Source: Oceanobacillus caeni
GTDB lineage: Bacteria; Bacillota; Bacilli; Bacillales; Amphibacillaceae
Length of the DNA stretch: 64,000 bases
Assembly (NCBI RefSeq): GCF_019037185.1
Contig: NZ_JAHHXM010000008.1
Location: 1 to 64,000, forward strand
Direction: 5' to 3'
Shown: positions 20,800 to 32,338 of the stretch, in pieces
How the letters are laid out: each line of letters opens with the position of its first letter
Position numbering within the stretch: position 1 is the stretch's first letter
Position numbers and translations under genes: made by a program
The notes under the pieces: generated by a model
Databases searched by the model: none
Told to the model about the DNA's origin: nothing
Seen by the model: only the letters and a program-made list of their open reading frames with translations

Positions 20800-21411
20800 T
20801 TACTCCTTATGAGAAATGTCCCCTTCAACTAACAGCTTTCTTTCTCCATCTTTTATTTCTATGATGGTAAGGCTCGTCCCTTCAATTTCTGGTGGTTCCC
20901 ATATTTTATCGATAGAATAGTTTTTACAAATCAACTGTAAAACTTTTATAACAACGCCATGTGTGATGATGAGGTGATTCCCAGTTTGATATTTTTCCTC
21001 TGTATCTTTCAAAAAATCTTTTACCCTTGTCACAACGTCTGTTAAATTTTCAGCCTCTTTTTCTTCACGATAATATTGATTAGGATGTTTTGCATAATTT
21101 TCAAACCTATCTGGGTCCATTTCCTTAATTTCCTCAAACGTTTTCCCTTGCCAACTTCCTAGATTTATTTCTTTCAACCGCTTATCCGTTTCAATCGCAA
21201 GCGTTTGGTTTCCTCTTATTATTCTAGCAGTGTGCATAGCCCTTTCACTTGGACTAGAAATAATGGAAGCAAAACAAGTAGATTTAAGTCTCTTACTCAA
21301 TAATTCTGCATGATGGATTCCATTAACTGTTAAAGGGGAATCTAAATGTCCTTGTAATCTCTTTTGTGCGTTCCATTCTGTTTCACCATGTCTTACAACA
21401 AATAACTTCAA
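20800..21411 (-). CDS. histidine phosphatase, CobC-like (second copy)
   Basis: 203 aa, with the phosphohistidine motif VVRHGETEWN at the start and the second catalytic HGVV near 150. It starts at TTG (21411) behind GGGAGGGAG, overlapping the cblS stop as TTGA. It is the last gene of the B12 operon. Expected role is removal of phosphate from alpha-ribazole-5'-phosphate or cobalamin-5'-phosphate. It is closer to canonical CobC/GpmB than the other copy at 23010. Confidence 0.82.
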   Translation of the reverse strand: MKLFVVRHGETEWNAQKRLQGHLDSPLTVNGIHHAELLSKRLKSTCFASIISSPSERAMHTARIIRGNQTLAIETDKRLKEINLGSWQGKTFEEIKEMDPDRFENYAKHPNQYYREEKEAENLTDVVTRVKDFLKDTEEKYQTGNHLIITHGVVIKVLQLICKNYSIDKIWEPPEIEGTSLTIIEIKDGERKLLVEGDISHKE

Positions 21412-22127
21412 ACTTCTCCCTCCCAAAGCCTATGGAAATTCTTATCTGCTACCTTTCGTAATTCGGATTCCTTCCCCTTAGAGTACTTCACTAAAATAGA
21501 TGTAGATGGCCCACCTGACTTTTCTAAATCTAGTTTAGTGCAATTTTTTACCATGCCATTATCTAAGGAAGGTACCATTCTTCTTAATTCATGCAATACT
21601 CCCTTTGAACCAACAGGCCAAACTTGGACATCTCTCATTCTGCAAATATCTTTCACTACAGAAAGGGGAACAACATCATCTTCTTGTGTTATAACTTCTT
21701 CACCAACTAATGGCAAACCGATTAAAGCAACACGATTGGAATCGGAAGTCTTCATGTTCATTTCACTCAAGATTTGCCTCTTACTAATAATGGTAACTCC
21801 AATTGCAGATTGACTTAAAGAAAAATTACTTTCCGTACTTCCCATTAGTGTAATATTTTCCATTCCAAGTTCAGCTAATCCTCTCTGAATTCCAGTGTTT
21901 AAATTACTCCATGCTTCGTCCCCACAAAAGTTTTGCAGGACGATGGAGACTGGTATTGCACCTGAGGATAAGGCTTCTACTATAGCGACGCGAAAAGAAT
22001 AGTAACTTACGATTTCGTATGGAACTTTTACAGCATCCGCTTCTTTTAATCCGATTGCACCACTATTGTCAGTCGTCATAACTAATTCTTCTTGTTCATT
22101 AAACGGAATAATTAGCGCATCTCTCAT
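21408..22127 (-). CDS. cblS: alpha-ribazole kinase CblS
   Basis: 239 aa of the AIR synthase/PurM-like fold. It starts MRDALIIPFNEQEELV, contains the metal/ATP-binding TTDNSGAIGLK segment and GSTESNFSLSQSAIGVT. This matches CblS, described in Listeria and Geobacillus as the ATP-dependent kinase that makes alpha-ribazole-5'-phosphate, replacing CobT. Its ATG overlaps the stop of the CblT gene (ATGA), as expected for this pair. Assignment rests on recall of the family plus context. Confidence 0.8.
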   Translation of the reverse strand: MRDALIIPFNEQEELVMTTDNSGAIGLKEADAVKVPYEIVSYYSFRVAIVEALSSGAIPVSIVLQNFCGDEAWSNLNTGIQRGLAELGMENITLMGSTESNFSLSQSAIGVTIISKRQILSEMNMKTSDSNRVALIGLPLVGEEVITQEDDVVPLSVVKDICRMRDVQVWPVGSKGVLHELRRMVPSLDNGMVKNCTKLDLEKSGGPSTSILVKYSKGKESELRKVADKNFHRLWEGEV

Positions 22128-22618
22128 CCCTTCGCTTCTCCTCTCTGATATGCCCCTTGAAAAACAGTAACTAAGCGTGGAATCATCAACCAGGCAATTA
22201 GGACATTCAATAAAGATCCGACAAATAAGGAAGGGACTAATGCGATGTAGAATGCTATATCAAGAATAAATATAAAAGGTAATGGAGCAATGAATGTATT
22301 ACCTAGAACGAATACGATATATGCCAATGTTCTTTTCCCATGTTGAAACAATTTGGCGAATATATAAATGAGCAAAGCCATGCTAATTGCCACGATAAAG
22401 TGAAGGGGACCAAGAGGCATTCCTCCAATAAGTGCGGATACCATATGACCAAAACCACCTACTATTGCCCCTGGTACCGCTCCAAAAAATGCTCCGGCAA
22501 GTATCGCGGGAAAGACATCTAATGCAATACTTCCGATAATAGCGGGGATTTTAATAGCCGCTCCGATAACAGATAGGGCAATAAATAAGGCAATTAAGCT
22601 CATTTTTCTTATATTCAT
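22124..22618 (-). CDS. cblT: CblT, ECF-type alpha-ribazole transporter
   Basis: 164 aa with five to six membrane helices and the ECF S-component pattern (ALDVFPAILAGAFFG, GAVPGAIVGGFGHMVSALIGG). Located directly before cblS, as in Listeria and Geobacillus where CblT imports alpha-ribazole. It is predicted to use the shared EcfAA'T module encoded elsewhere. The ATG at 22618 follows GGGAGTGAGGG. It overlaps its neighbour CblS. Confidence 0.82.
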   Translation of the reverse strand: MNIRKMSLIALFIALSVIGAAIKIPAIIGSIALDVFPAILAGAFFGAVPGAIVGGFGHMVSALIGGMPLGPLHFIVAISMALLIYIFAKLFQHGKRTLAYIVFVLGNTFIAPLPFIFILDIAFYIALVPSLFVGSLLNVLIAWLMIPRLVTVFQGAYQRGEAKG

Positions 22619-22623
22619 TTCCC

Positions 22624-23058
22624 TCACTCCCCCATTTTAATAGTTTGATTTATTCCATACCAAATAACATCCACCCGTTTACTTCTTCTCGCTAAATCTT
22701 GATAAAACCAACCTGTCAAATCACGCCAATCTCTTTCTTCCTTTTGCATTGGAACGATTCCCTTCATGATGTCTGCTCCAATTATAATCATGCTTCTATT
22801 GGCCTTAGCATTTTCCCATTCCAACCATTGATCAAGACAATTTCTTAAATGCGCTCGGGCTTCATCGATAGTCATTTTCTCCAAGCTTTCTTTTGTCCAA
22901 CGTTCCACTCCTTCAAACACAATACGTTGGCTAGAAGAATTTTCCAAAGTCTTTGGTAACTTGTCTCCATCATAGAAGGATATCCATTTAGCGCAAGCAT
23001 AATTATCTTTTACCCAAGCCTTTTTCCCGTTAAAGGCACCTCCTGTAACGAAATGCAT
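22624..23058 (-). CDS. short CobU-like nucleotide-binding protein
   Basis: 144 aa starting MHFVTGGAFNGKKAWV, a P-loop resembling that of CobU/CobP. The remaining sequence, with EGVERW and IIIGADIMKGIVP, follows the same order as CobU but lacks the RSGKS and guanylyl-histidine regions seen in the second, full-length CobU at 25268. It may be a divergent paralogue with a kinase-only or accessory role. Perfect AGGAGG RBS. Confidence 0.65.
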   Translation of the reverse strand: MHFVTGGAFNGKKAWVKDNYACAKWISFYDGDKLPKTLENSSSQRIVFEGVERWTKESLEKMTIDEARAHLRNCLDQWLEWENAKANRSMIIIGADIMKGIVPMQKEERDWRDLTGWFYQDLARRSKRVDVIWYGINQTIKMGE

Positions 23059-23636
23059 GGTTCTCCCCTCCTTAAATCTGTTTTACGAAACTTCAAAACA
23101 TATCCGGTCCCATGTTCTATTTTCCAATCCCAAAATTCCTTCTTTTCTTCACTATAACGAGTCAGTAAATATCGAATGACCCCACCATGTGTAACGATAA
23201 ATACATTTTTAGCATGATTTCTGAATATCATGTCCACAACTCGATTCCATCCTTTATCCACTCTATATGTAAACCATTGAAATGACTCCCCACCAGGAAT
23301 GACTTCCTTAAACGGTTGATTTATCCATCGCTGATAATTCATGTCATCCTTTAAATCCGCATATGTTTTCCCTTCAAAGATACCAAAATTCATTTCTCTT
23401 AATTCGGCTAATTTGATAGGCTTTATGTTTGGAAATAATAGATTCATGGTAGTTACACAACGATTAAGGTCACTGGAAATAAATAAATCATAGTCCTTTG
23501 CCTGAAGTCTAATGGAAGATAGTGCCAGTCTCGCTTCTTCTGTTAGCACGGAATCGGTCCAACCTACGTAAGCTTGTCGCTTATTTTCTTCCGTTAAACC
23601 ATGGCGAAATAATGTAATAGCCACAACGTCATCCAT
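23010..23636 (-). CDS. histidine phosphatase, CobC-like (first copy)
   Basis: 208 aa. The active-site start is [12 protein letters not shown] (N in place of the frequent W/R pattern), the phosphatase signature DLNRCVTT follows, and the second histidine is in VTHGGVIRYLL. It overlaps the cobS end by 43 bp and the next gene by 49 bp, so it is part of the tightly packed operon. Predicted alpha-ribazole phosphatase. Confidence 0.8.
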   Translation of the reverse strand: MDDVVAITLFRHGLTEENKRQAYVGWTDSVLTEEARLALSSIRLQAKDYDLFISSDLNRCVTTMNLLFPNIKPIKLAELREMNFGIFEGKTYADLKDDMNYQRWINQPFKEVIPGGESFQWFTYRVDKGWNRVVDMIFRNHAKNVFIVTHGGVIRYLLTRYSEEKKEFWDWKIEHGTGYVLKFRKTDLRRGEPCISLQEVPLTGKRLG

Positions 23637-24388
23637 AATATATTTTCAGTCCCTTCTCCTGAAGCACCAAGAATATCACCTGTAATTCCCCCAAAATGTT
23701 TTACTGTCTTTTGGCGAATAAAGAAATAACATCCCACCGTAACTAGGACAAATAAAAGTACCGGGAGAATAAACGTAAGATCAATCATACATATAAGTGC
23801 AAATAAGACAATGATATAAATGGGATATATATATAATGTATTTTTCTTTGCCGCATTTTTAAAAAAAGAAGCCAAACCTTCCTTCTTCGCTGCTGGAATA
23901 AGCAGTAACACCAATCCCATCACTATTTTACTTAGAAAAGGAATAAGAATGATGAGAAGGAATGTGTATAGCTTTGCAAATTGGATCACTTCATAAATAA
24001 ATAAAAGTCGACTGCTTAGTAAAACTAGTAGAGACATGACTCCAAATGCACCAGTCCTTGGATCTTTCATTATCTCTAGTCTTTTTTCTTTATCTTGATA
24101 AGAGAAATAGGCATCACTCATGTCCATCCAACCATCTAAATGAATACCACCAGTGATGAGGATGGTAGCAAGCCAAATAATAAAGGCAATTGCTAATGTT
24201 GAAAAAGGAGTCCATTCCAAAAGAAAATATAATAGAGCACTATAAAGGATTCCTTGAAATAACCCTAGCAATGGGAAGGACTGAATACTTTTTTCAATAT
24301 AATCCTTCTCCATCGGTAATGATTTCTTTATTGGTAGAGCTGTTAAAAATTGAATCGTTATAAGAAAACCTGTAATAAATTTCCTCAT
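23594..24388 (-). CDS. cobS: adenosylcobinamide-GDP ribazoletransferase
   Basis: 264 aa polytopic membrane protein with [16 protein letters not shown] and [10 protein letters not shown], the metal-binding and conserved motifs of CobS. It joins AdoCbi-GDP to alpha-ribazole(-phosphate), the last assembly step of the cobamide. The ATG at 24388 overlaps the cbiP stop as ATGA; a longer frame lacks an RBS. Confidence 0.9.
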
Positions 24389-25227
24389 TCCCCGTTCCAT
24401 CCGTTCAAAATGTCTTTTACTTTTTCCCAATTAAGATGTCTTTTTACTTCGAATGCTAGAGAATCATATTGTTCTTCCTTAACCCGCACCGCTTGGTCCA
24501 GCCTTTGTGAAGCTAATGAATCTTCTTTAGGAATGCCATGATCCATCATGTATGGAAGGACACCAAGAACGGGAACCCCAGTCTTCTCTTCTAACCATTG
24601 TACACCATCTTCAAAAAGTGAAATGTCCCCGCGAAATTTATTAATCATAATCCCTTGTATACGTTTCCTTTCCATAGGGGAAAGTAGCTCTAATGTTCCT
24701 ACAATATTAGCAAAGACTCCACCACGTTCAATGTCTGCTATTAAAAGTACGGGGACATCAGCTAATTCCGCAATCTTCATATTAACTAATTCTCGATCAT
24801 TCAAGTTTATTTCCACCGGACTTCCTGCACCTTCAATTACGACAACATCAAATTCCCCTTGTAAATGGCTTAAAGAGGTTCGAACCGCTTCTAATCCCCT
24901 ATCATAAAATTGATTTCGGTAATCCTTTCCGGAAAGTGTTTCTACTGTTTCTCCAAGTAATATGATTTCTGATTGTGTATCAGAGTTAGGTTTTAATAAT
25001 ATTGGATTCATCCAAATGGAAGCCTCTGTCCTTGCAGCCTCTGCTTGAACACCTTGAGCAAGTCCTATTTCCTTTCCACCCGGAAGTATATAGGAATAAT
25101 TAGACATGTTTTGAGATTTAAATGGTGCAACCTTCAAACCCTCTTGTGCAAATAAACGGCAGAGAGCAGTAGTAATGAGGCTTTTTCCAACATCCGAAGC
25201 GGTTCCTTGTATCATGATTCCTTTCAT
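24385..25227 (-). CDS. cbiP: CbiP-like cobyric acid synthase lacking the glutaminase domain
   Basis: 280 aa instead of about 500. Residues 1-230 are the ATP-dependent synthetase part: [10 protein letters not shown]-loop, [12 protein letters not shown], [23 protein letters not shown] and [13 protein letters not shown]. At about 238 the frame passes from EDSLA straight to a tail [15 protein letters not shown] that resembles the extreme C-terminus of full CbiP, so the class I glutaminase with its Cys-His-Glu triad is missing. RBS AGGAG is 8 nt before the ATG. The longer upstream frame comes from repeat A4. In a salvage operon the amidation step is dispensable. Confidence 0.85.
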
Positions 25228-25244
25228 ACCTTTTTCTCCTTTCA

Positions 25245-25290
25245 ATGGTTGTTTAAAAAGTCCGTTATTATCCTCCCTTTTGAACATGCA
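25245..25290. repeat. dispersed repeat family A, interior-deleted copy A4
   Basis: Contains TTGTTTAAAAAGTCCG joined almost directly to CCTCCCTTTTGAACATGC, the two outer ends of copies A2 and A3 with the whole interior missing. It spans the cobU stop codon and the short gap before cbiP. Confidence 0.7.
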
Positions 25291-25858
25291 TTTTCATTAG
25301 TAAAGGTACTCCTGCTTCTACTAAATAAGCACTTTCTGCGTAACGAACTATTTTTTGATGTAATTTCCCGAGTAGTTCACTATAGGTCACCAATAATTCA
25401 TTGGGAAGGATAGGCTCATTTAATACTTCATTACTAACAAGGACCACTTGATTGCTATAATCTGCTATTTCCTTTATCCCTTGCCAAATTCTTTGGAAAA
25501 CCTCTTTTTTCTCCAAACGCTGCTCCACCCAATCAGCTTCATGAGCAAATAATTCATTCGATAACATCGTCGTCAAACAATCTAACAAAATGACATCTTT
25601 CTTATTAAATTCTGTAGCTAGGGTGGAAATATTTGTTTCCTTTTCCCACGTTTTCCATGAATGACCACTTTTATTTCTATCTTCCTGATGTCGTTTAATT
25701 CTTAGTCTCATTTCAGAATCTGTTGCTCTACCGGTAGCGATATAATGTAAGGAACCGCCTATTTCCTCTGCCTTTTGAATGGCTATTCTTTCTGCAAAAC
25801 TGCTTTTGCCACTTCGAACGCCACCGGTAATAAACGTTATGGAAGTTGTTGTTTCCAT
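25268..25858 (-). CDS. cobU: adenosylcobinamide kinase / guanylyltransferase CobU
   Basis: 196 aa with the CobU P-loop [14 protein letters not shown], the guanylyl-accepting histidine region [18 protein letters not shown] and VLVSNEV. It phosphorylates AdoCbi and attaches GMP. Its last codons, VQKGG then stop, lie inside repeat A4. RBS GGAGG is 10 nt before the ATG, in the end of cobD. Confidence 0.9.
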
Positions 25859-26916
25859 TCTTTTAGCGCCTCCATAAGTTGATTATTTTCCTCTATACTT
25901 TTAATCGCAAATCTTAGCCATTTTCCCTCTATTCCAGGAAAATTGCATGTATGTCTAGGTACAATCCCCTTTTTTAAAAGGTAAGCAAATAATTCCCCCA
26001 TATAATCCTTCTTCGGTTCTTTCAATAAATAAAAGTTAACCTTAGAAGGTGAATATACAAAGCTTTCCTTGTCAAAAAACGCAAATAGTCTTGTTCGCTC
26101 TTTCTTTATATACTGAACCGTTCTATGTACAAATGATTCGTCTTGTAAACATAATTCCCCTGCTGTCATCGCTAATGCATTAACATTCCAGTGGGATTGG
26201 TAAACCGATATTTCCTCCACAACCGATGGATGAGCCATCATATATCCTAATCTCAGGCCCGGAATGGCAAACATTTTTGTCATGGAGCGAAGAATGACTA
26301 AATTTTTATAATCATTAATCAGAGCCGCAATTGGAGTATATTCCTCCACAAAATCGTAAAATGCCTCATCGACTATAAGTAACGCATTCGCCTTCTTGCA
26401 TTCTTCTAATAATTGGACAATGGTGTCATAAGAATAAAAAACACCAGTTGGGTTCGTCGGATTACATAAGAATACAGCATCTATTGCCTCTAGCTTTTCC
26501 TTTATTTCATGGATATGTAATTCCCAATGAGGCTCTTTTAAGTAGTGGTAATAAATTCGACAATCATTGGCCTGACAAGCCTTTTCATATTCAGAAAATC
26601 CTGGCTCGGTAATAAGAACGTTTTTTTCCAATAACAATCTACCCACTAGAGAAATCAATTCAGCTCCGCCATTTCCTATTAAAACGGAGTCCATATTTAT
26701 CTCATTTTTTTCCGAAATCATCGTCTTCAATGAAAGAGAGTAAGGATCTGGGTAATCATTAATCTTTTGAAAAAAACTCATCCAATTTTGCTCCAAATGC
26801 TTAGGTGGACCTAACGGATTAATATTTGCGCTTAAATCCATGATTTGATCCGGTTTTTCTATTCCCATTTCTTGATATACATATTGGGGATTAGAACCAT
26901 GTTGCGGTAAGTTCAA
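25837..26916 (-). CDS. cobD: L-threonine-O-3-phosphate decarboxylase CobD
   Basis: 359 aa PLP enzyme of the histidinol-phosphate aminotransferase fold. It shows MDLSANINPLGPP, NGGAELISL, CNPTNPTGVF and the PLP-lysine RSMTKMFAIPGLRLGY. It supplies (R)-1-aminopropanol-2-phosphate for CbiB. The start is taken at TTG 26916 behind GGAGGGGG, overlapping cbiB by 26 bp; a longer frame exists. A threonine kinase is not seen in the operon. Confidence 0.88.
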   Translation of the reverse strand: MNLPQHGSNPQYVYQEMGIEKPDQIMDLSANINPLGPPKHLEQNWMSFFQKINDYPDPYSLSLKTMISEKNEINMDSVLIGNGGAELISLVGRLLLEKNVLITEPGFSEYEKACQANDCRIYYHYLKEPHWELHIHEIKEKLEAIDAVFLCNPTNPTGVFYSYDTIVQLLEECKKANALLIVDEAFYDFVEEYTPIAALINDYKNLVILRSMTKMFAIPGLRLGYMMAHPSVVEEISVYQSHWNVNALAMTAGELCLQDESFVHRTVQYIKKERTRLFAFFDKESFVYSPSKVNFYLLKEPKKDYMGELFAYLLKKGIVPRHTCNFPGIEGKWLRFAIKSIEENNQLMEALKEWKQQLP

Positions 26917-27856
26917 TGACGCCCCCTCCAATCCATAAAACAACTAAAAAAACAATAGTCGTTCGAGTTAAGATTTTATTGGTTTCTATAATATGATCTT
27001 TATGCAAAGGGATAATCGGCTCTCCCATTTTCGCTCTATTAGAAATGACACCCTTATAATAATTGATGCCGCCAAGTTGCACACCCAATAACGCAGCTAC
27101 CGAGGCCTCAAGCCATCCACTATTTGGACTTGGGTGTTTTCTTGAATCACGAAATAGTATTTCCCATGCTTTTGTTACTTTCATATGTGCTGGTTGGTGA
27201 GCAATCAATATAAGAAAACCGGTCAACCGACTTGGTATCCAATTTACCACATCATCTAGTTTTGCTGACGCCCAACCGAACTCCCCGTATTTTTCATTTT
27301 TATAACCTACCATAGAATCACATGTATTGATAGCACGGTAAACTAGAGCGAGTGGTGCACCGCCAATTAATGCCCAGAACAATGGTGCAGTCACCCCATC
27401 ACTTATGTTTTCTGCTACCGTCTCCACGGTACCTCTAACCATTTCTTCTTCTCCCAAAGTTTCCGTGTCTCTACCAACAATGTACGATAATTTTAATCTT
27501 GCTTCCTTAAAATTGCCCATTTTAAGAGGTACATAGACTTCTAAAGCCGCATCTTTCAACCCCTTTCGAGCAATTGTTGTGGAAATAAGAATACTTTCTA
27601 ACAAAATACCGGCAATAACGTGAATATGATAGAAGCCCCAAACTAGTAGAAACGTTATAAAGAAAGTCACTGTTATCATCATGAATACCATGATGATTCC
27701 TTTTAATTTTCGTGACTTCCCCCGGTTCCATTTCTTCTCCATTCTAGAAATTCCACTTCCCATCCATTTCACAGGATGTGGCCATGAGGGTGGATCACCT
27801 ATAATGGAATCGATAAGAATTGCTAATGTTATGGCTATCAAATGATACACAATCAT
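26891..27856 (-). CDS. cbiB: adenosylcobinamide-phosphate synthase CbiB
   Basis: 321 aa with about five membrane helices and the conserved IDSIIGDPPSWPHPVKWMG start, RDTETLGEEEMVRGTVETVAEN, SDGVTAPLFW and HPSPNSGWLEASVA. It attaches aminopropanol phosphate to cobyrate. The ATG at 27856 follows AGGAAATAGGA, and the BtuD-CbiZ stop is 3 nt upstream. Confidence 0.92.
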   Translation of the reverse strand: MIVYHLIAITLAILIDSIIGDPPSWPHPVKWMGSGISRMEKKWNRGKSRKLKGIIMVFMMITVTFFITFLLVWGFYHIHVIAGILLESILISTTIARKGLKDAALEVYVPLKMGNFKEARLKLSYIVGRDTETLGEEEMVRGTVETVAENISDGVTAPLFWALIGGAPLALVYRAINTCDSMVGYKNEKYGEFGWASAKLDDVVNWIPSRLTGFLILIAHQPAHMKVTKAWEILFRDSRKHPSPNSGWLEASVAALLGVQLGGINYYKGVISNRAKMGEPIIPLHKDHIIETNKILTRTTIVFLVVLWIGGGVIELTATWF

Positions 27857-27858
27857 TC

Positions 27859-29322
27859 CTATTTCCTCTTTTGACTTTTTTGAATAGATTCTCTTGTACA
27901 CCAATAAACTGCTTTACTAATTAACTTACCTAATGCGGTGATGGTACCTGCAAAGTCATGCTGTTCCCCTCTTTGGGTTGCAGCTATTAAAATACTATCT
28001 GTGGACGTTCCGGTTGCATAGGTTCCCGTAACAGAATCGATTACTTTTTGATCCTCAAGGGCCCTAACCTTTGCTTCCGTTGCCGTTACCATCCCTTGAA
28101 TAAAGGCTTCTTCCGTTATTTTTGCGTTAATAAAAATCCATGTATTAATCGTTCCAGGAATAAACTCGGATGAATGGCTTTCACTATGTGTAGCATCCAC
28201 CGCATTACCAACACCAGCAGTGACAACGACAAAAATGGATAGCCCACCGTGTTCCATCCATTTATAAGACACGTCATCTAAAACAACAGCAGTCATCATC
28301 CCTACTGTTTCAAGCGGATCAAAACCTTTTTCACGTAAATAATTCATCATTTCTTCTCGGTGATTACTACAACTGTAACCTTTGTCCACATGACGATTAA
28401 CAAATGTCTGATTCCATCCTAATCCTGATCCAACTACACCAGATGACATGGTTTTTAGGGGAATTGGTGACCGGAGTACTATATGATGTTTACGATGTTG
28501 TAGCATGTCAGCAGTAATGTTCACTGCTTCTACTTCTTCCTTTTCCCATTTAGGGAGTAATGTAATTTGTGGAGCTGGTACTCTTGGGTGGGCGAATTTT
28601 TTAATATCTGTTTGATACACATCTTGGATTCGATCCTCTTTCAACACTTCATTTGTCTTATTCTGAATATTAATCATCCCTTTTTCAAGCAGCAAAAGAC
28701 GATCACAATAAAGCCCAGCTAGATTTAAATCGTGGAAAATGGAAATAACCGTAAGCATTCCATCCCTTGTCCATGTTTTCAAAATATCTAATAATTCTTT
28801 TTGATAAGAAAGGTCTAGATGGTTCGTCGGCTCATCTAATAATAAAATTTCTGGTTCTTGCGCAAGAGCCTGAGCAAGATTGACCCTTTGACGCTCCCCC
28901 CCTGAAAGTTGCCCAAGATTTTTGTTTTGCAAAACATCTACCCCTGTTTGCTTCATTACTTCTTGAACAATTTTCTCATCGGTCTCTGTCCACATTTGAA
29001 GAAAACCACTTTGGTGTGCATAGCGCCCTAGAGAAACTGTCTCTTTAACCGTATAAGAAAAGGCATGTTCAGAATGCTGTGGAAGAACAGCAACAATTTT
29101 AGCCAATTCCTTTTGCGAATACTGTGATAGTTTCTTATCCTTTATAAAAATACTACCTTCTTTAAAAGGTAGTAATCCACTAATCATTTTAAGTAAAGTC
29201 GTTTTTCCACTTCCATTCGGTCCTAAGATGCCAAAGAGCTCCCCTTTAGCAACATGAAAAGATATATCTTTTAAAACCGATTCACTCGAATATCCACCTG
29301 ATATTTGCTGTACTTCAAGCAT
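27859..29322 (-). CDS. btuD: fused BtuD ATPase and CbiZ adenosylcobinamide amidohydrolase
   Basis: 487 aa. Residues about 1-245 are the ABC ATPase of a corrinoid importer: Walker A GPNGSGKT (34-41), signature LSGGERQRV, Walker B EILLLDEPTNHLDL. Residues about 270-487 are CbiZ: LRSPIPLKTMSSGVVG, VVLDDVSYKWMEHGG, VVVTAGVGNAVDATH, GTINTWIFINA, ATYATGTSTDSI. CbiZ cleaves the aminopropanol arm of AdoCbi to give cobyrate. Fusion places remodelling at the transporter's inner face, on the arriving substrate. Confidence 0.92.
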   Translation of the reverse strand: MLEVQQISGGYSSESVLKDISFHVAKGELFGILGPNGSGKTTLLKMISGLLPFKEGSIFIKDKKLSQYSQKELAKIVAVLPQHSEHAFSYTVKETVSLGRYAHQSGFLQMWTETDEKIVQEVMKQTGVDVLQNKNLGQLSGGERQRVNLAQALAQEPEILLLDEPTNHLDLSYQKELLDILKTWTRDGMLTVISIFHDLNLAGLYCDRLLLLEKGMINIQNKTNEVLKEDRIQDVYQTDIKKFAHPRVPAPQITLLPKWEKEEVEAVNITADMLQHRKHHIVLRSPIPLKTMSSGVVGSGLGWNQTFVNRHVDKGYSCSNHREEMMNYLREKGFDPLETVGMMTAVVLDDVSYKWMEHGGLSIFVVVTAGVGNAVDATHSESHSSEFIPGTINTWIFINAKITEEAFIQGMVTATEAKVRALEDQKVIDSVTGTYATGTSTDSILIAATQRGEQHDFAGTITALGKLISKAVYWCTRESIQKSQKRK

Positions 29323-29356
29323 TGTAACCCTTCTTTCTATCGTTGTCTCCGTTTGA

Positions 29357-29509
29357 GAAGTTGTTCAAAAAGTCCGGTGAAAATGACACTTCGCATTTCT
29401 TCGTTGGCTTGCTTTTCCGGTACTCACGTATTAACTGCATACGTTCCGTTCCTCAAAGCTAAGCCGCCTCGAACTACTCGGTCCTTTTCATCCTCCTTTT
29501 TGAACACGT
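29357..29509. repeat. dispersed repeat family A, copy A2
   Basis: TTGTTCAAAAAGTCCGGTG at one end and CCTTTTTGAACA at the other. The interior holds CGTATTAACTGCATACG and CCGCCTCGAACT, shared with A3. It fills the whole gap between btuC and the btuD-cbiZ gene, and its right end encodes the last residues and stop of btuC. Confidence 0.78.
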
Positions 29510-30546
29510 CGTTTGATTAAAATAACAGCAAACGCTGGAGCGCCAATTAATGCTGTTATGACCCCTATTGGTAATTCCGTCGGGGAAATGATGGTCCTTG
29601 CAATCAAATCTGTCAAAATTAGAAAGCCGCTTCCTGTTAACATGGATAATGGAAGTAAATGCGTATGATCAGGTCCCCATAAGCTCCGAGTTAAATGTGG
29701 AATGACTAACCCTACAAAACCAATTGTTCCTGATACGGCAACTGCTGCTCCTGTTAAAATCGATCCAGCCGTTAAAATTACTAGTTTTCTTTTCTTTACA
29801 TCTACCCCTAGATATTGTGCTCGATCCTCACCGAATGACATCGCATTTAATTCTCTACCATTCGCCATTAATAACACAGAACCTAGTACAAAAAATGGCA
29901 AAATAATTTTAATATAATCCCATCCCCGCATGGAGACACTCCCTAAAAGCCAGCCAATAATTTGCTTTAATTCATTACCAGTGAGTGATATCATGAGCGA
30001 AATAAAGGCACCTAAAAAGGAACTAAAAATAACACCTGTTAATATAATCGTTTCCACTCTCATCGAACGATCAATTTTACGAGCAAATGTTAAAACGAGA
30101 AAAATAGTAATAAAGGCAAAAACAACGCTTAAAAATGGTAAGGTGAATGCTCCAATATATGGCAGGGAAATACCAAAAAAGATGGTGACAACTGCACCCA
30201 CTGAGGCACCTGAAGAAACCCCTAATGTATAAGGATCTGCTAATGGGTTTCTAAGTAGACCTTGAAAGGCAGCACCAGCAATGGCTAGTGCCGCCCCAAC
30301 AAGTCCTGCTAAGATGACTCTTGGCAATCGAATATTTAATACAATACTTTGATACATCGGGTCAATATGATCAATAGAATAATGAAAGATTTCTGCACCA
30401 ATAATTTGAACGATGTCTACTATTGGTACAGAAACCGTACCGATAGATATCCCCAATAATAAAGAAAGAATCGTAAATATAGTTGCTAATGTATAGGCAA
30501 GAATCTTATTCTTCGCTAAATATTTCAGGGTAAACTGCTTTCGCAA
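29488..30546 (-). CDS. btuC: BtuC-type cobamide ABC permease
   Basis: 352 aa FecCD-family permease with about ten helices and the usual LRNPLADPYTLGVSSGASVGA, GRELNAMSFGEDRAQYLG and GFVGLVIPHLTR motifs. It forms the membrane channel with BtuF and BtuD. Start chosen at TTG 30546 behind GGAG; an upstream in-frame start is possible. It overlaps btuF by about 40 bp. It ends with VQKGG-stop encoded inside repeat A2. Confidence 0.88.
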   Translation of the reverse strand: MRKQFTLKYLAKNKILAYTLATIFTILSLLLGISIGTVSVPIVDIVQIIGAEIFHYSIDHIDPMYQSIVLNIRLPRVILAGLVGAALAIAGAAFQGLLRNPLADPYTLGVSSGASVGAVVTIFFGISLPYIGAFTLPFLSVVFAFITIFLVLTFARKIDRSMRVETIILTGVIFSSFLGAFISLMISLTGNELKQIIGWLLGSVSMRGWDYIKIILPFFVLGSVLLMANGRELNAMSFGEDRAQYLGVDVKKRKLVILTAGSILTGAAVAVSGTIGFVGLVIPHLTRSLWGPDHTHLLPLSMLTGSGFLILTDLIARTIISPTELPIGVITALIGAPAFAVILIKRRVQKGG

Positions 30547-31486
30547 CTTCTTTAACTCCTTCAACAAGTCTTGGGCCTGGACGACTTACAAGATCAGTTT
30601 GGACATCAAATACTTGGTCTTCCTTAACTGCAGTGACATCTTCCCAACCTTTTCTTTCCTTCACTTGGTCTATAGCATCTTCTGTATACTCACCATACGT
30701 CGTAATGATGACATCAGGATTATAGCCTAACAATGTTTCTTCATCTACTTTAGGCCAACCTTCCTCCTCTATAGCGTTATCTGCATTTATTGTGGCTAAT
30801 ATCTCATCCATAAATGTATTTTTTCCACCTACATAAATTTCTGGCGCAGGGGAAATTTCAAAAATAACAGATTTCTTATCTGCCACTTCTTCTGCTTTTG
30901 CTTGAATATCATCAAATTCATTCTTCATATCGGTTATGATTGTTTCCGCTTCTTCCTCGGTACCAGTTACTTGACCAATCATTTGAATCGTATCATATAC
31001 TTGATTGAAATTTGTTGCATCATTTACAACAAGAACTGGGATACCAGAATCTCTTAATTGTTGAAATCCCTCTTCAGAACTTCCCATACTAGAAGCATGT
31101 GCTAATACTAAATCAGGCTCTAAAGATATAATTTTTTCAATATTAAATTCCATTCCACCAATTTTTTCAATATCCGCAACTTCTTCCGGATAATTATCGT
31201 TGTCAGATACTCCAACTACCTTATCACCTAAGCCTAATGCAAAGGCAATTTCTGTATTACTTGGAATTAGAGAAACGATTTTTTCAGGCTCTTTCTCAAT
31301 CGTTACTTCTTGGTCTGTTGCATCCGTAATGGTTACTGGGAATGCTTGATCTCCTGCTTGTTCCGCTTGTTCTGTATTTTCAGCATTATTATCAGTGTTT
31401 GCATCCTTTGGTTCTTCACTACCACAACCAGCAATCATTCCAATTGCGAAAAACATTAAAAATAAAAGCGACATTAACTTTTTCAT
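30506..31486 (-). CDS. btuF: BtuF-type cobamide-binding lipoprotein
   Basis: 326 aa. Lipoprotein signal peptide with lipobox IAGC, then an acidic linker rich in Asn/Glu, then a periplasmic-type binding domain of the cobamide/iron family (VSLIPSNTEIAFALGLGD, GGMEFNIEKIISLEPDLVLA, PDVIITTYG). It presents corrinoids to BtuCD. It is the first gene of the operon behind the cobalamin riboswitch, with AGGGGG before the ATG. Confidence 0.88.
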   Translation of the reverse strand: MKKLMSLLFLMFFAIGMIAGCGSEEPKDANTDNNAENTEQAEQAGDQAFPVTITDATDQEVTIEKEPEKIVSLIPSNTEIAFALGLGDKVVGVSDNDNYPEEVADIEKIGGMEFNIEKIISLEPDLVLAHASSMGSSEEGFQQLRDSGIPVLVVNDATNFNQVYDTIQMIGQVTGTEEEAETIITDMKNEFDDIQAKAEEVADKKSVIFEISPAPEIYVGGKNTFMDEILATINADNAIEEEGWPKVDEETLLGYNPDVIITTYGEYTEDAIDQVKERKGWEDVTAVKEDQVFDVQTDLVSRPGPRLVEGVKEVAKAVYPEIFSEE

Positions 31487-31570
31487 TCTTTACAAATCCC
31501 CCTTAGAAAACTTGGCATTCTCCATACTTTTGGATGAATGCCTTAGTTGCACTCATGAAAATCTTTACGG

Positions 31571-31593
31571 TGGGGCGAGTAATCGGATCCCCA
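31571..31593. other. hairpin C2 in the btuF leader
   Basis: TGGGG (31571-31575) pairs with CCCCA (31589-31593) around GAGTAATCG. It is extended by outer arms AAAATCTTT/AAAGATTTT. It shares loop and flanks with C1 at 571-593, with a compensating pair change. It lies between the riboswitch terminator and btuF. Confidence 0.5.
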
Positions 31594-31643
31594 GATGGAA
31601 AAGATTTTTATGCTTTCCTAACTGCTAAATACTTTTGTAAAAC

Positions 31644-31675
31644 AAAAAACATCTCTACAGATGAACGTAAAGATG
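31644..31675 (-). terminator. riboswitch expression-platform terminator
   Basis: On the minus strand CATCTTTAC (31675-31667) pairs with GTAGAGATG (31658-31650), then TTTTTT. It follows the aptamer by about 60 nt. It would stop transcription of the B12 operon when the ligand is bound. Confidence 0.8.
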
Positions 31676-31732
31676 CAGATAATTCCAGATAGTATAATCC
31701 TGTCACCACCTTCCTCCCATCCTCGTAGGTAC

Positions 31733-31876
31733 TAGTGCGTTGAATTAGGCAGGTATCCTGGCTCATGATCATTGCTTACTACACCTTCCCATACATAACG
31801 TATAGTGGTATTTGTAGTTCGCTCCCATTTACAGTGGCGGGACCGCGTTGGGTTTGCACCAACTTCCCTTTTAAGA
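31733..31876 (-). promoter_or_regulatory. cobalamin riboswitch
   Basis: The minus strand contains the diagnostic B12-aptamer blocks in order: GGGAAGTTGGTGCAAACCC, GCGGTCCCGCCACTGTAA, GGGAG, GGGAAGG and GAGCCAGGATACCTGCC (the B12-box). It lies about 250 nt before btuF and heads the operon. With adenosylcobalamin bound, a downstream terminator hairpin should form and shut off import and salvage genes. Repeat A3 begins almost directly at its 5' edge. Confidence 0.95.
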
Positions 31877-32086
31877 GGTTGTTCAAAAAGTCCGGTGAAA
31901 ATGACACTTCGCATTTCGCATGAATGCTTGCTTTTCCGTTCCTCACGTATTTACTGCATACGTTCCGGTAACGAAAGCTACACCGCCTCGAACTGCGACG
32001 CACAGGACGTGCTAGTATCGGCGTTGCAAAAGGACGTTGCGCAGTTAGCCGACCTCGGTCCTTTTCATCTCCCTTTTTGAACACTC
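31873..32086. repeat. dispersed repeat family A, copy A3
   Basis: Longest copy, about 214 bp, with both inverted ends (TTGTTCAAAAAGTCCGGTG and CCCTTTTTGAACA). The interior has the A2-like part plus an extra hairpin-forming insert (ACTGCGACG...CGTTGCGCAGT) and GCCGACCTCGGTCC. It abuts the cobalamin riboswitch. Confidence 0.78.
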
Positions 32087-32338
32087 ACTTTCAGTCTATA
32101 TTAGACACCTAATTCCATTTCGTATATAATTTTCCATTACTATTTTATCATACTACTAAATACGCAAAATGAAAACAAAGCATACTCTTTTTATAGCAAA
32201 TCATGCAGAATTATGACATATTAAGATTAATTTTGGAACGTGAATCAAATGGTTCGTATACTTTTTTCTCCAAATATAGAAAACTAATGATAAAATATTA
32301 CTATTAATAGTTTCTTTACAGAAATAGGAGTGTTTGAA

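Follow-up and report, generated by a model that had tools for sequence, protein, structure and literature searches.

Cobyric acid synthases of the CbiP/CobQ family (NF001989, TIGR00313) combine a P-loop synthetase domain with a glutamine amidotransferase (GATase) domain and make cobyrate from cobyrinate a,c-diamide and glutamine in four amidations. A further route, salvage of alpha-ribazole by CblT and CblS, was reportedly worked out in Listeria innocua and Geobacillus by Gray and Escalante-Semerena in 2010 and by Mattes and Escalante-Semerena in 2017. CbiZ-dependent salvage and remodelling of corrinoids has been described by Woodson and Escalante-Semerena (2004) and Gray and Escalante-Semerena (2009), both as cited in PMC3541065. 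Among about 11,000 species, PMC6461909 reports CblS in 363, mostly Firmicutes, and CbiZ in 1,041. In Table 1 of PMC6593275, CbiP without ring genes stands for cobyrinate-diamide salvage and CbiP with CbiA for cobyrinate salvage. Here we describe a locus of Oceanobacillus caeni in a stretch of 64,000 nucleotides (the window), positions 1 to 64,000 of contig NZ_JAHHXM010000008.1 of assembly GCF_019037185.1. Its minus strand carries a predicted 13-gene operon with CbiZ and predicted CblT and CblS, together with a CbiP that has lost its GATase domain (the short CbiP).

Taken as a whole, the operon belongs to a known kind. Judged from sequence comparison, it probably serves corrinoid salvage and remodelling and contains a distinct variant of CbiP, which would act in an ATP-dependent manner on a corrinoid of the salvage route. 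Like other CbiP/CobQ proteins, the short form has the P-loop synthetase domain, most of the conserved positions, the C-terminal tail and a place between cobU and cobS, but it lacks GATase_3 and has N64 altered, with T68, G75 and R76 in varying sets, and no corrin pathway that would feed it was found in the genome of the window. As in the CbiZ-dependent systems described in PMC3541065, CbiZ occurs together with BtuFCD and CbiB; it differs in being fused to BtuD, and may cleave cobinamide, pseudocobalamin or both. The combination of an ECF (energy-coupling factor) S-like transporter and a weakly AIRS-like protein in a cobS operon, in a genome where CobT was not found, resembles CblT/CblS salvage, whereas a second histidine phosphatase is appended here. 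The 'Acbr' salvagers of PMC6593275 likewise have CbiP, CbiB, CobU, CobS, CobC, CobD and PduO without corrin-ring genes, but their entry there includes CobT and presupposes a functional CbiP. Since CobT is absent and the GATase of CbiP is gone, the 'Acbr' label would probably be wrong for this genome. Literature searches on GATase-less CbiP, CbiZ/CblS operons, Oceanobacillus riboswitches and interrupted riboswitches, which covered the subscription literature thinly, returned no such description.

A CbiP without its glutaminase domain

The short CbiP (24385..25227, minus strand; NF001989, E 3.7e-112) comprises 280 residues from its likely start and consists of the synthetase domain and a C-terminal tail. 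Its match to NF001989 is confined to model positions 2-241 of 480. No Pfam match to the GATase domain was obtained in it, and the whole domain appears as a gap in the alignment with full-length relatives; the last ~30 residues align to the extreme C-terminus of the long protein and are joined in frame. A preliminary description of this DNA had already called the CbiP short, which the profile match bears out, but it had overlooked the recurrence of the GATase-less form, and the start of the listed open reading frame (ORF), 25287, most likely gives way to 25227 on the basis of a start check and the homologues. The protein passes both NCBIfam cut-offs for cobyric acid synthase (375.9 against 273 bits and 321.3 against 309.9 bits), and annotation pipelines therefore probably label it as a working synthase.

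To describe the distribution we denote the genome of the window as G000, other genomes compared by G-numbers and loci compared by L-numbers. Strong CbiP matches (E below 1e-60) were present in 29 of the 159 genomes searched in the GTDB family: 23 are short, one is broken (G107) and five are long (G015, G021, G024, G174 and G175; full-length or nearly so, the C-terminus of G175 being shifted). A class-wide sample gave CbiP matches in 212 of 398 genomes, and among the matches listed at least 14 more frames are short, 13 in one other family (f36) and 1 in another (f46), nine of which were verified as ORFs; the 320-residue protein of G216, whose match ends at residue 252, is unclear and was excluded from this count. 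Named carriers of the short form include Sporosarcina sp. P34 and Lentibacillus persicus. When 80 loci were compared, three were GATase-less, four had no synthetase ORF and one (L068) had part of the GATase only.

The short CbiP is under purifying selection. In five pairs of genomes, two of which share G025, its ratio of nonsynonymous to synonymous substitution rates (dN/dS) was 0.141, 0.121, 0.135, 0.227 and 0.121, as compared with 0.135 for one full-length CbiP pair and 0.028-0.368 for other operon genes. At the level of residues, 81 full-length rows share 64 positions with a conservation of 95% or more, and G000 keeps 61 of them. The exceptions, the same in G016, are N64 (now Y), T68 (now L) and R76 (now L). 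G010 has altered N64, S65, E73, G75, R76 and A77, and the changes in the other 21 short rows fall mainly at positions 64-77 and at R219, with variation also at L97, Y123 and L142. Unchanged in the short rows are G28-K35 of the P-loop, K57, N60, E152-G155, D185 and N216; the P-loop residues G28, T29, S31, G34 and K35 are kept in 24 of 24. In a set of 79 rows, 32 of the 33 short forms have Tyr, Phe, His, Arg or Asp in place of N64; G75 is replaced in 31 of 33 and R76 in 22 of 33, and none of the three is replaced in any of the 46 full-length rows; conservation of G75 and R76 in the 81 full-length rows is 0.98. The comparison with the 81 full-length rows leaves aside L169 (the same genome as L083), L171 (broken), L172 (a broken second copy) and L052 (the same as G016), and furthermore L068, L029, weak matches and any fusion longer than 950 residues.

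An AlphaFold2 model of the short CbiP reached a predicted local distance difference test score (pLDDT) of 90.7 and a predicted template-modelling score (pTM) of 0.89; that of a full-length relative reached 92.2 and 0.91, and both models are confident. In the short form the tail helices have a pLDDT of 91-98, and the weak stretch is the former GATase linker at residues ~251-270. These scores point to the tail as a part of the synthetase fold and to the GATase as a removable insertion. Sequence searches did not find a solved CbiP structure. The nearest solved folds are dethiobiotin synthetases (1dae, E 4.3e-10, template-modelling scores 0.53/0.71), which, like the short CbiP, are P-loop enzymes free of a GATase, but BioD shares 16% identity with it and has another substrate and context.

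Origins and competing explanations

To examine how often the GATase was lost, we compared a tree of the CbiP domain with a quick tree of seven neighbouring proteins from which CbiP was left out; both omit L169, L171, L172 and L052. On the CbiP domain tree the label 'short' or 'full' changes three times, with 2-4 changes in bootstrap trees and none of 200 trees having a single change. On the neighbour-protein tree it changes five times, of which the starred branches force at least three, and a single short clade is rejected (p 2e-5). The latter test used 35 of the 39 rows of that quick tree, the odd rows Sporosarcina, G051, G174 and BacSJS having been dropped beforehand; loci entered the tree with at least six of the seven neighbour proteins. 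If CbiP was inherited together with its neighbours, these trees imply several losses of the GATase, and if it moved alone, one loss is possible. Taken together, the trees suggest that the GATase was lost several times.

A number of observations weigh against the interpretation of the short CbiP as a repeatedly derived variant in a CbiZ and CblS route. The approximately unbiased (AU) test on the CbiP domain tree does not reject a single short clade (p 0.176), and in a tree of the 79 CbiP rows with the loop excluded the best topology has five changes and the starred branches force one. The difference in residues between short and full forms is partly shared ancestry, there being one independent pair on starred branches, and the altered loop is assigned to the active site by its position beside the conserved K57 and N60. 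G000 also contains four places with partial GATase_3 matches of 20-39 bits, three of them over the cut-off, which could represent a separate GATase partner. The only short row to keep N64 is that of G114, whose cbiP is found away from the operon, next to a gene of the GDPD family. The operon stretch of G104 (Lentibacillus persicus; L169/L083) retains btuFC, btuD-cbiZ (CbiZ PF01955, E 4.9e-56), cobU, the short cbiP, cobS, the gene for a CobU-like protein, pduO and cblS, and cbiB, cobD and cobC1 were not found in it, so that the hand-over from CbiZ to CbiB is weakened. Two points concern single steps of the route: the protein assigned as CblS gave no family match at 1e-3 and no NCBIfam match, only a weak one to AIRS (PF00586), and no PduX-like kinase that would supply L-threonine phosphate is evident among the five GHMP-kinase places of G000.

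One conceivable alternative reads the short CbiP as a remnant in decay, left after salvage of cobyrinate or cobyrinate-diamide was lost, with the GATase gone first and the rest on its way out. CbiA and CobA(BtuR) stand beside full-length CbiP, ahead of cbiB, in G015, G021 and G175 and beside no short form in the loci compared, and the broken second CbiP of G098 adjoins them; the operon of G053 has no CbiP; the conserved positions L97, Y123, L142 and R219, outside the loop, vary in many of the 21 short rows; and breakage in G107 affects the short CbiP along with BtuD-CbiZ, CobD and CobC. The G107 operon, though, decays as a whole and not in CbiP alone. The dN/dS of the short CbiP is similar to that of its neighbours in the five pairs, and the form is present in 23 of the 29 CbiP-bearing genomes of one family and in at least 14 genomes elsewhere. 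Constraint and a conserved ATP site thus make decay less likely, and we consider it improbable. A mere annotation or assembly artefact in an ordinary cobinamide-salvage operon has next to no probability: the layout is indeed common among the relatives compared, but 33 rows, drawn from many assemblies, have an open frame that includes the C-terminal tail, and the occurrence of the same form in independent genomes refutes it.

Alternatively, the short CbiP could have remained a cobyric acid synthase, served by free ammonia or by the glutaminase of another protein, in a lineage with salvage of cobyrinate a,c-diamide (PMC6593275, 'Acbr' variant). The intact synthetase core and the passing of the cobyric acid synthase cut-offs are consistent with such an activity. 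Ammonia can stand in for glutamine in related amidotransferases, and this also speaks for a retained reaction. So does the existence of split synthetase/GATase pairs such as MurT/GatD (PMC3267633). Possibly N64 belongs to a tunnel or an interface, and the enzyme may depend on ammonia. On the other hand, N64 and mostly G75 and R76 are altered in the short forms and kept in 46 of 46 full-length rows, and a detached CbiP-type GATase was not found in G000, where the best GATase_3 place is partial and scores 38.6 bits, compared with 127-136 bits for the GATase of CbiA. Since N64 was lost together with the glutaminase, a plain continuation of the old reaction is less likely, and we regard a surviving synthase as unlikely. 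The interpretation that we prefer remains a salvage operon with a distinct, probably ATP-dependent CbiP variant. A more specific proposal, which we put forward only tentatively, is that several Bacillales lineages independently cut the glutaminase from CbiP and retuned its substrate loop, thereby giving the CbiZ route a new, ATP-dependent enzyme for corrinoids that may, for example, activate a carboxylate or re-amidate damaged corrinoids with ammonia.

The operon, its riboswitch and its genomic setting

Between positions 20800 and 31486 the minus strand holds 13 ORFs, all co-directional, and the ORF check and family profile searches agree with the gene families named in the preliminary description. 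As listed, adjacent ORFs overlap, with the sole exception of a 165-bp gap between btuC and btuD-cbiZ. The operon begins with btuF for a corrinoid-binding lipoprotein (30506..31486; PF01497, E 2.8e-39; BtuF model 4.3e-34, below its cut-off) and the permease gene btuC (29488..30567; PF01032, 4.3e-95; BtuC model 8.1e-87, also below its cut-off). The btuD-cbiZ fusion (27859..29322) encodes an ABC (ATP-binding cassette) ATPase (PF00005, 1e-36, residues 17-167) and an adenosylcobinamide amidohydrolase (PF01955, 2.7e-54, residues 287-474), the latter at 184.5 bits against a cut-off of 27. There follow cbiB, cobinamide-phosphate synthase (26891..27904; TIGR00380, 5.9e-86, over its cut-off; PF03186, 9e-106), cobD, threonine-phosphate decarboxylase (25837..26943; TIGR01140, 2.7e-94, over its cut-off), cobU, cobinamide kinase/guanylyltransferase (25268..25858; PF02283, 7.3e-45), the short cbiP, and cobS, cobalamin-5-phosphate synthase (23594..24430; TIGR00317, 8e-39, over its cut-off).

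The remaining genes have softer assignments. The names given earlier hold by profile match in most cases, but both histidine phosphatases fall under the CobC equivalog cut-off: cobC1 (23010..23636), alpha-ribazole phosphatase-like, scores 122.8 bits with TIGR03162 against 162.9, and the last gene of the operon, 'cobC2' (20800..21426; PF00300, 4.4e-53), scores 140 bits with PRK13463 and 138 bits with CobC, both below the cut-offs. A CobU-like protein of 144 residues (22624..23058; PF02283, 3.3e-10, and alignment) has a degenerate P-loop (GGAFNGKK) and lacks the segment that links the P-loop to the core. Its motifs KGIVP and RDLTGW.YQ recur in such operons, and in G051 it also stands beside CobT. 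It is a candidate for the L-threonine kinase not found so far, or for a non-catalytic partner. The gene for CblT (22124..22627; PF12822, 7e-14), an ECF-type S component, is predicted by context and the literature to serve alpha-ribazole uptake, and that for CblS (21408..22127) encodes a predicted AIR-synthase-like alpha-ribazole kinase (PF00586, E 0.0047, 17.8 bits, below its cut-off). Both identities are predictions from context, weak family matches and the literature. A homologue of CblS is present in 20 of 58 genomes, G000 included.

The same order recurs in relatives as btuF-btuC-btuD/cbiZ-cbiB-cobD-cobU-cbiP-cobS-cobC-cobU-like-(pduO)-(cblT)-cblS-(cobC2). All 11 core genes lie in one stretch in 26 of 37 related loci, most of which were selected for carrying CbiP, and CblT was called in just 13 of the 37. 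Cytobacillus praedii and Bacillus sp. V3B have the operon with a full-length CbiP and without CbiA, and in G051 CobT is present and CblS absent within the stretch. The broken operon of G107 (L171) has been mentioned above; G098 has an intact operon with a short CbiP and a second locus (L172) with btuFCD-cbiZ, cbiA, cobA and a broken CbiP.

Upstream of btuF lies a cobalamin riboswitch (RF00174, match 31731-31926, 94.2 bits, E 3.7e-22, gathering threshold 31.5), in agreement with the earlier description. The locus was taken there to end at 31876, which is the edge of an inserted repeat; the aptamer extends to ~32127. On the minus strand, the 3' part of the aptamer occupies 31731..31875 and the 5' half, which consists of the 5' strand of P1 (GAATTAGG) and the next hairpin, lies at 32094..32127, as seen by alignment with the uninterrupted riboswitch of G016/L036. 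The intervening 218 nt (31876..32093) form an inverted-repeat element resembling a miniature inverted-repeat transposable element (MITE) that is absent from G016, and Rfam leaves the 5' half unplaced because this insert displaces it. The G016 aptamer scores 117.3 bits. A promoter-like site (TTTTCA-17-TATGAT, 32147..32175) lies just upstream of the 5' half and is weak evidence, as 43 such sites were found and 40.6 expected in shuffles. The claim that the riboswitch has its own terminator is supported by a terminator-like hairpin with a T run in the expression platform (31649..31676) that is conserved in G016, although the scan alone is weak (12 terminator-like sites in the region, 8.1 expected), and the interruption of the aptamer had been overlooked. 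In predicted secondary structures, which leave the ligand and the pseudoknot outside the model, the element pairs with itself as one hairpin and P1 (8 pairs, with 31749-31742) forms at a probability of 0.96-0.99, compared with 0.90-0.93 when the element is removed and the empty site joined; the helices outside the element are the same in both minimum-energy structures. Since the element is predicted to fold out and P1 to form, riboswitch control is plausible, and the operon is most likely under a transcription-terminating cobalamin riboswitch. The interrupted aptamer offers a natural test of the amount of foreign RNA that a riboswitch can tolerate.

The repeat has 67 matching pieces in G000, on many contigs and counting its own copy, and contains a match to the Bacillaceae-1 RNA (RF01690, 31999-32063, 40.2 bits); this RNA family may be, at least partly, a piece of a mobile repeat and not a stand-alone small RNA. 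A second copy, without the Bacillaceae-1 part, lies between btuC and btuD-cbiZ (29352..29507, minus strand), and a remnant of repeat ends (families D2 and D4, 68-81% alike; a 17-mer with one mismatch) lies at the cobU-cbiP junction (25234..25287, minus strand). At the same junctions of G016, btuC and btuD-cbiZ are 14 bp apart, and cobU and cbiP overlap by one base.

G000 is a 3.57-Mb genome in 87 contigs, 99.86% complete. The absence of CobT and of the corrin-ring genes, first stated for the operon, extends to the whole of it: CobT (PF02277) was not found by a search that as a control matches 7 of 14 genomes, and CbiD gave no match in G000 or in 27 other genomes of the genus. Of its three TP_methylase places, one adjoins sat and a gene resembling sirB (named by reading their sequences) and the other two, with frames of 294 and 500 residues, agree with RsmI and YabN in length alone, which does not suggest a corrin pathway. 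De novo corrin synthesis is rejected on the absence of CbiD with only three TP-methylases, and CobT is absent as well, so that the genome does not combine cobT with a full corrin pathway. A search for PduX and PduO located PduO on another contig and no evident PduX-like gene; one GHMP kinase was read as ThrB, beside ThrC, and the remaining ones were assigned to IspE and a mevalonate cluster of three genes from nothing more than their place and size. Gene content, the genome-wide absences and the conserved order thus support the earlier proposal of import and remodelling. Two B12-binding places (L004, L005) point to two likely adenosylcobalamin-dependent mutases. One has a methylmalonyl-CoA-mutase-like large subunit, with the B12-binding domain on a second protein that also carries an epimerase-like domain; the other is an IcmF-like fusion with TetR-like and MeaB-like genes upstream (names from reading the sequences).

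A proposed salvage route and its implications

The families present allow a route to be drawn, in which the substrates and the flow are deduced from gene content. BtuFCD would take up cobamides or cobinamide, and the CbiZ half of BtuD-CbiZ would yield (adenosyl)cobyrate by cutting off the aminopropanol arm. CbiB and CobD would then remake cobinamide phosphate, which CobU would convert to cobinamide-GDP. For the lower part of the molecule, in this genome without CobT, CblT is predicted to take up alpha-ribazole and CblS to phosphorylate it. CobS would couple both halves and CobC take off the phosphate. PduO, encoded elsewhere, would adenosylate, and the coenzyme would be used by the methylmalonyl-CoA-mutase-like and IcmF-like enzymes. 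Within this scheme the short CbiP has most likely lost the ability to convert cobyrinate a,c-diamide to cobyrate with glutamine. It could instead add free ammonia to partly hydrolysed side chains, activate a carboxylate for another nucleophile, or drive the handling of salvaged corrinoid with ATP, and the data favour none of these options over the others.

If the short CbiP cannot amidate with glutamine, predictions of cobyrinate-diamide salvage are wrong for most of the CbiP-bearing members of the family. Were the tentative proposal of a new enzyme to hold, the short form of the 37 genomes counted here, and probably of many more, would be mis-annotated as a maker of cobyrate. If it acts in another way, corrinoid salvage in these organisms would include an additional ATP-dependent step, and the short forms would provide a natural domain-loss series for studying the interdependence of synthetase and glutaminase.

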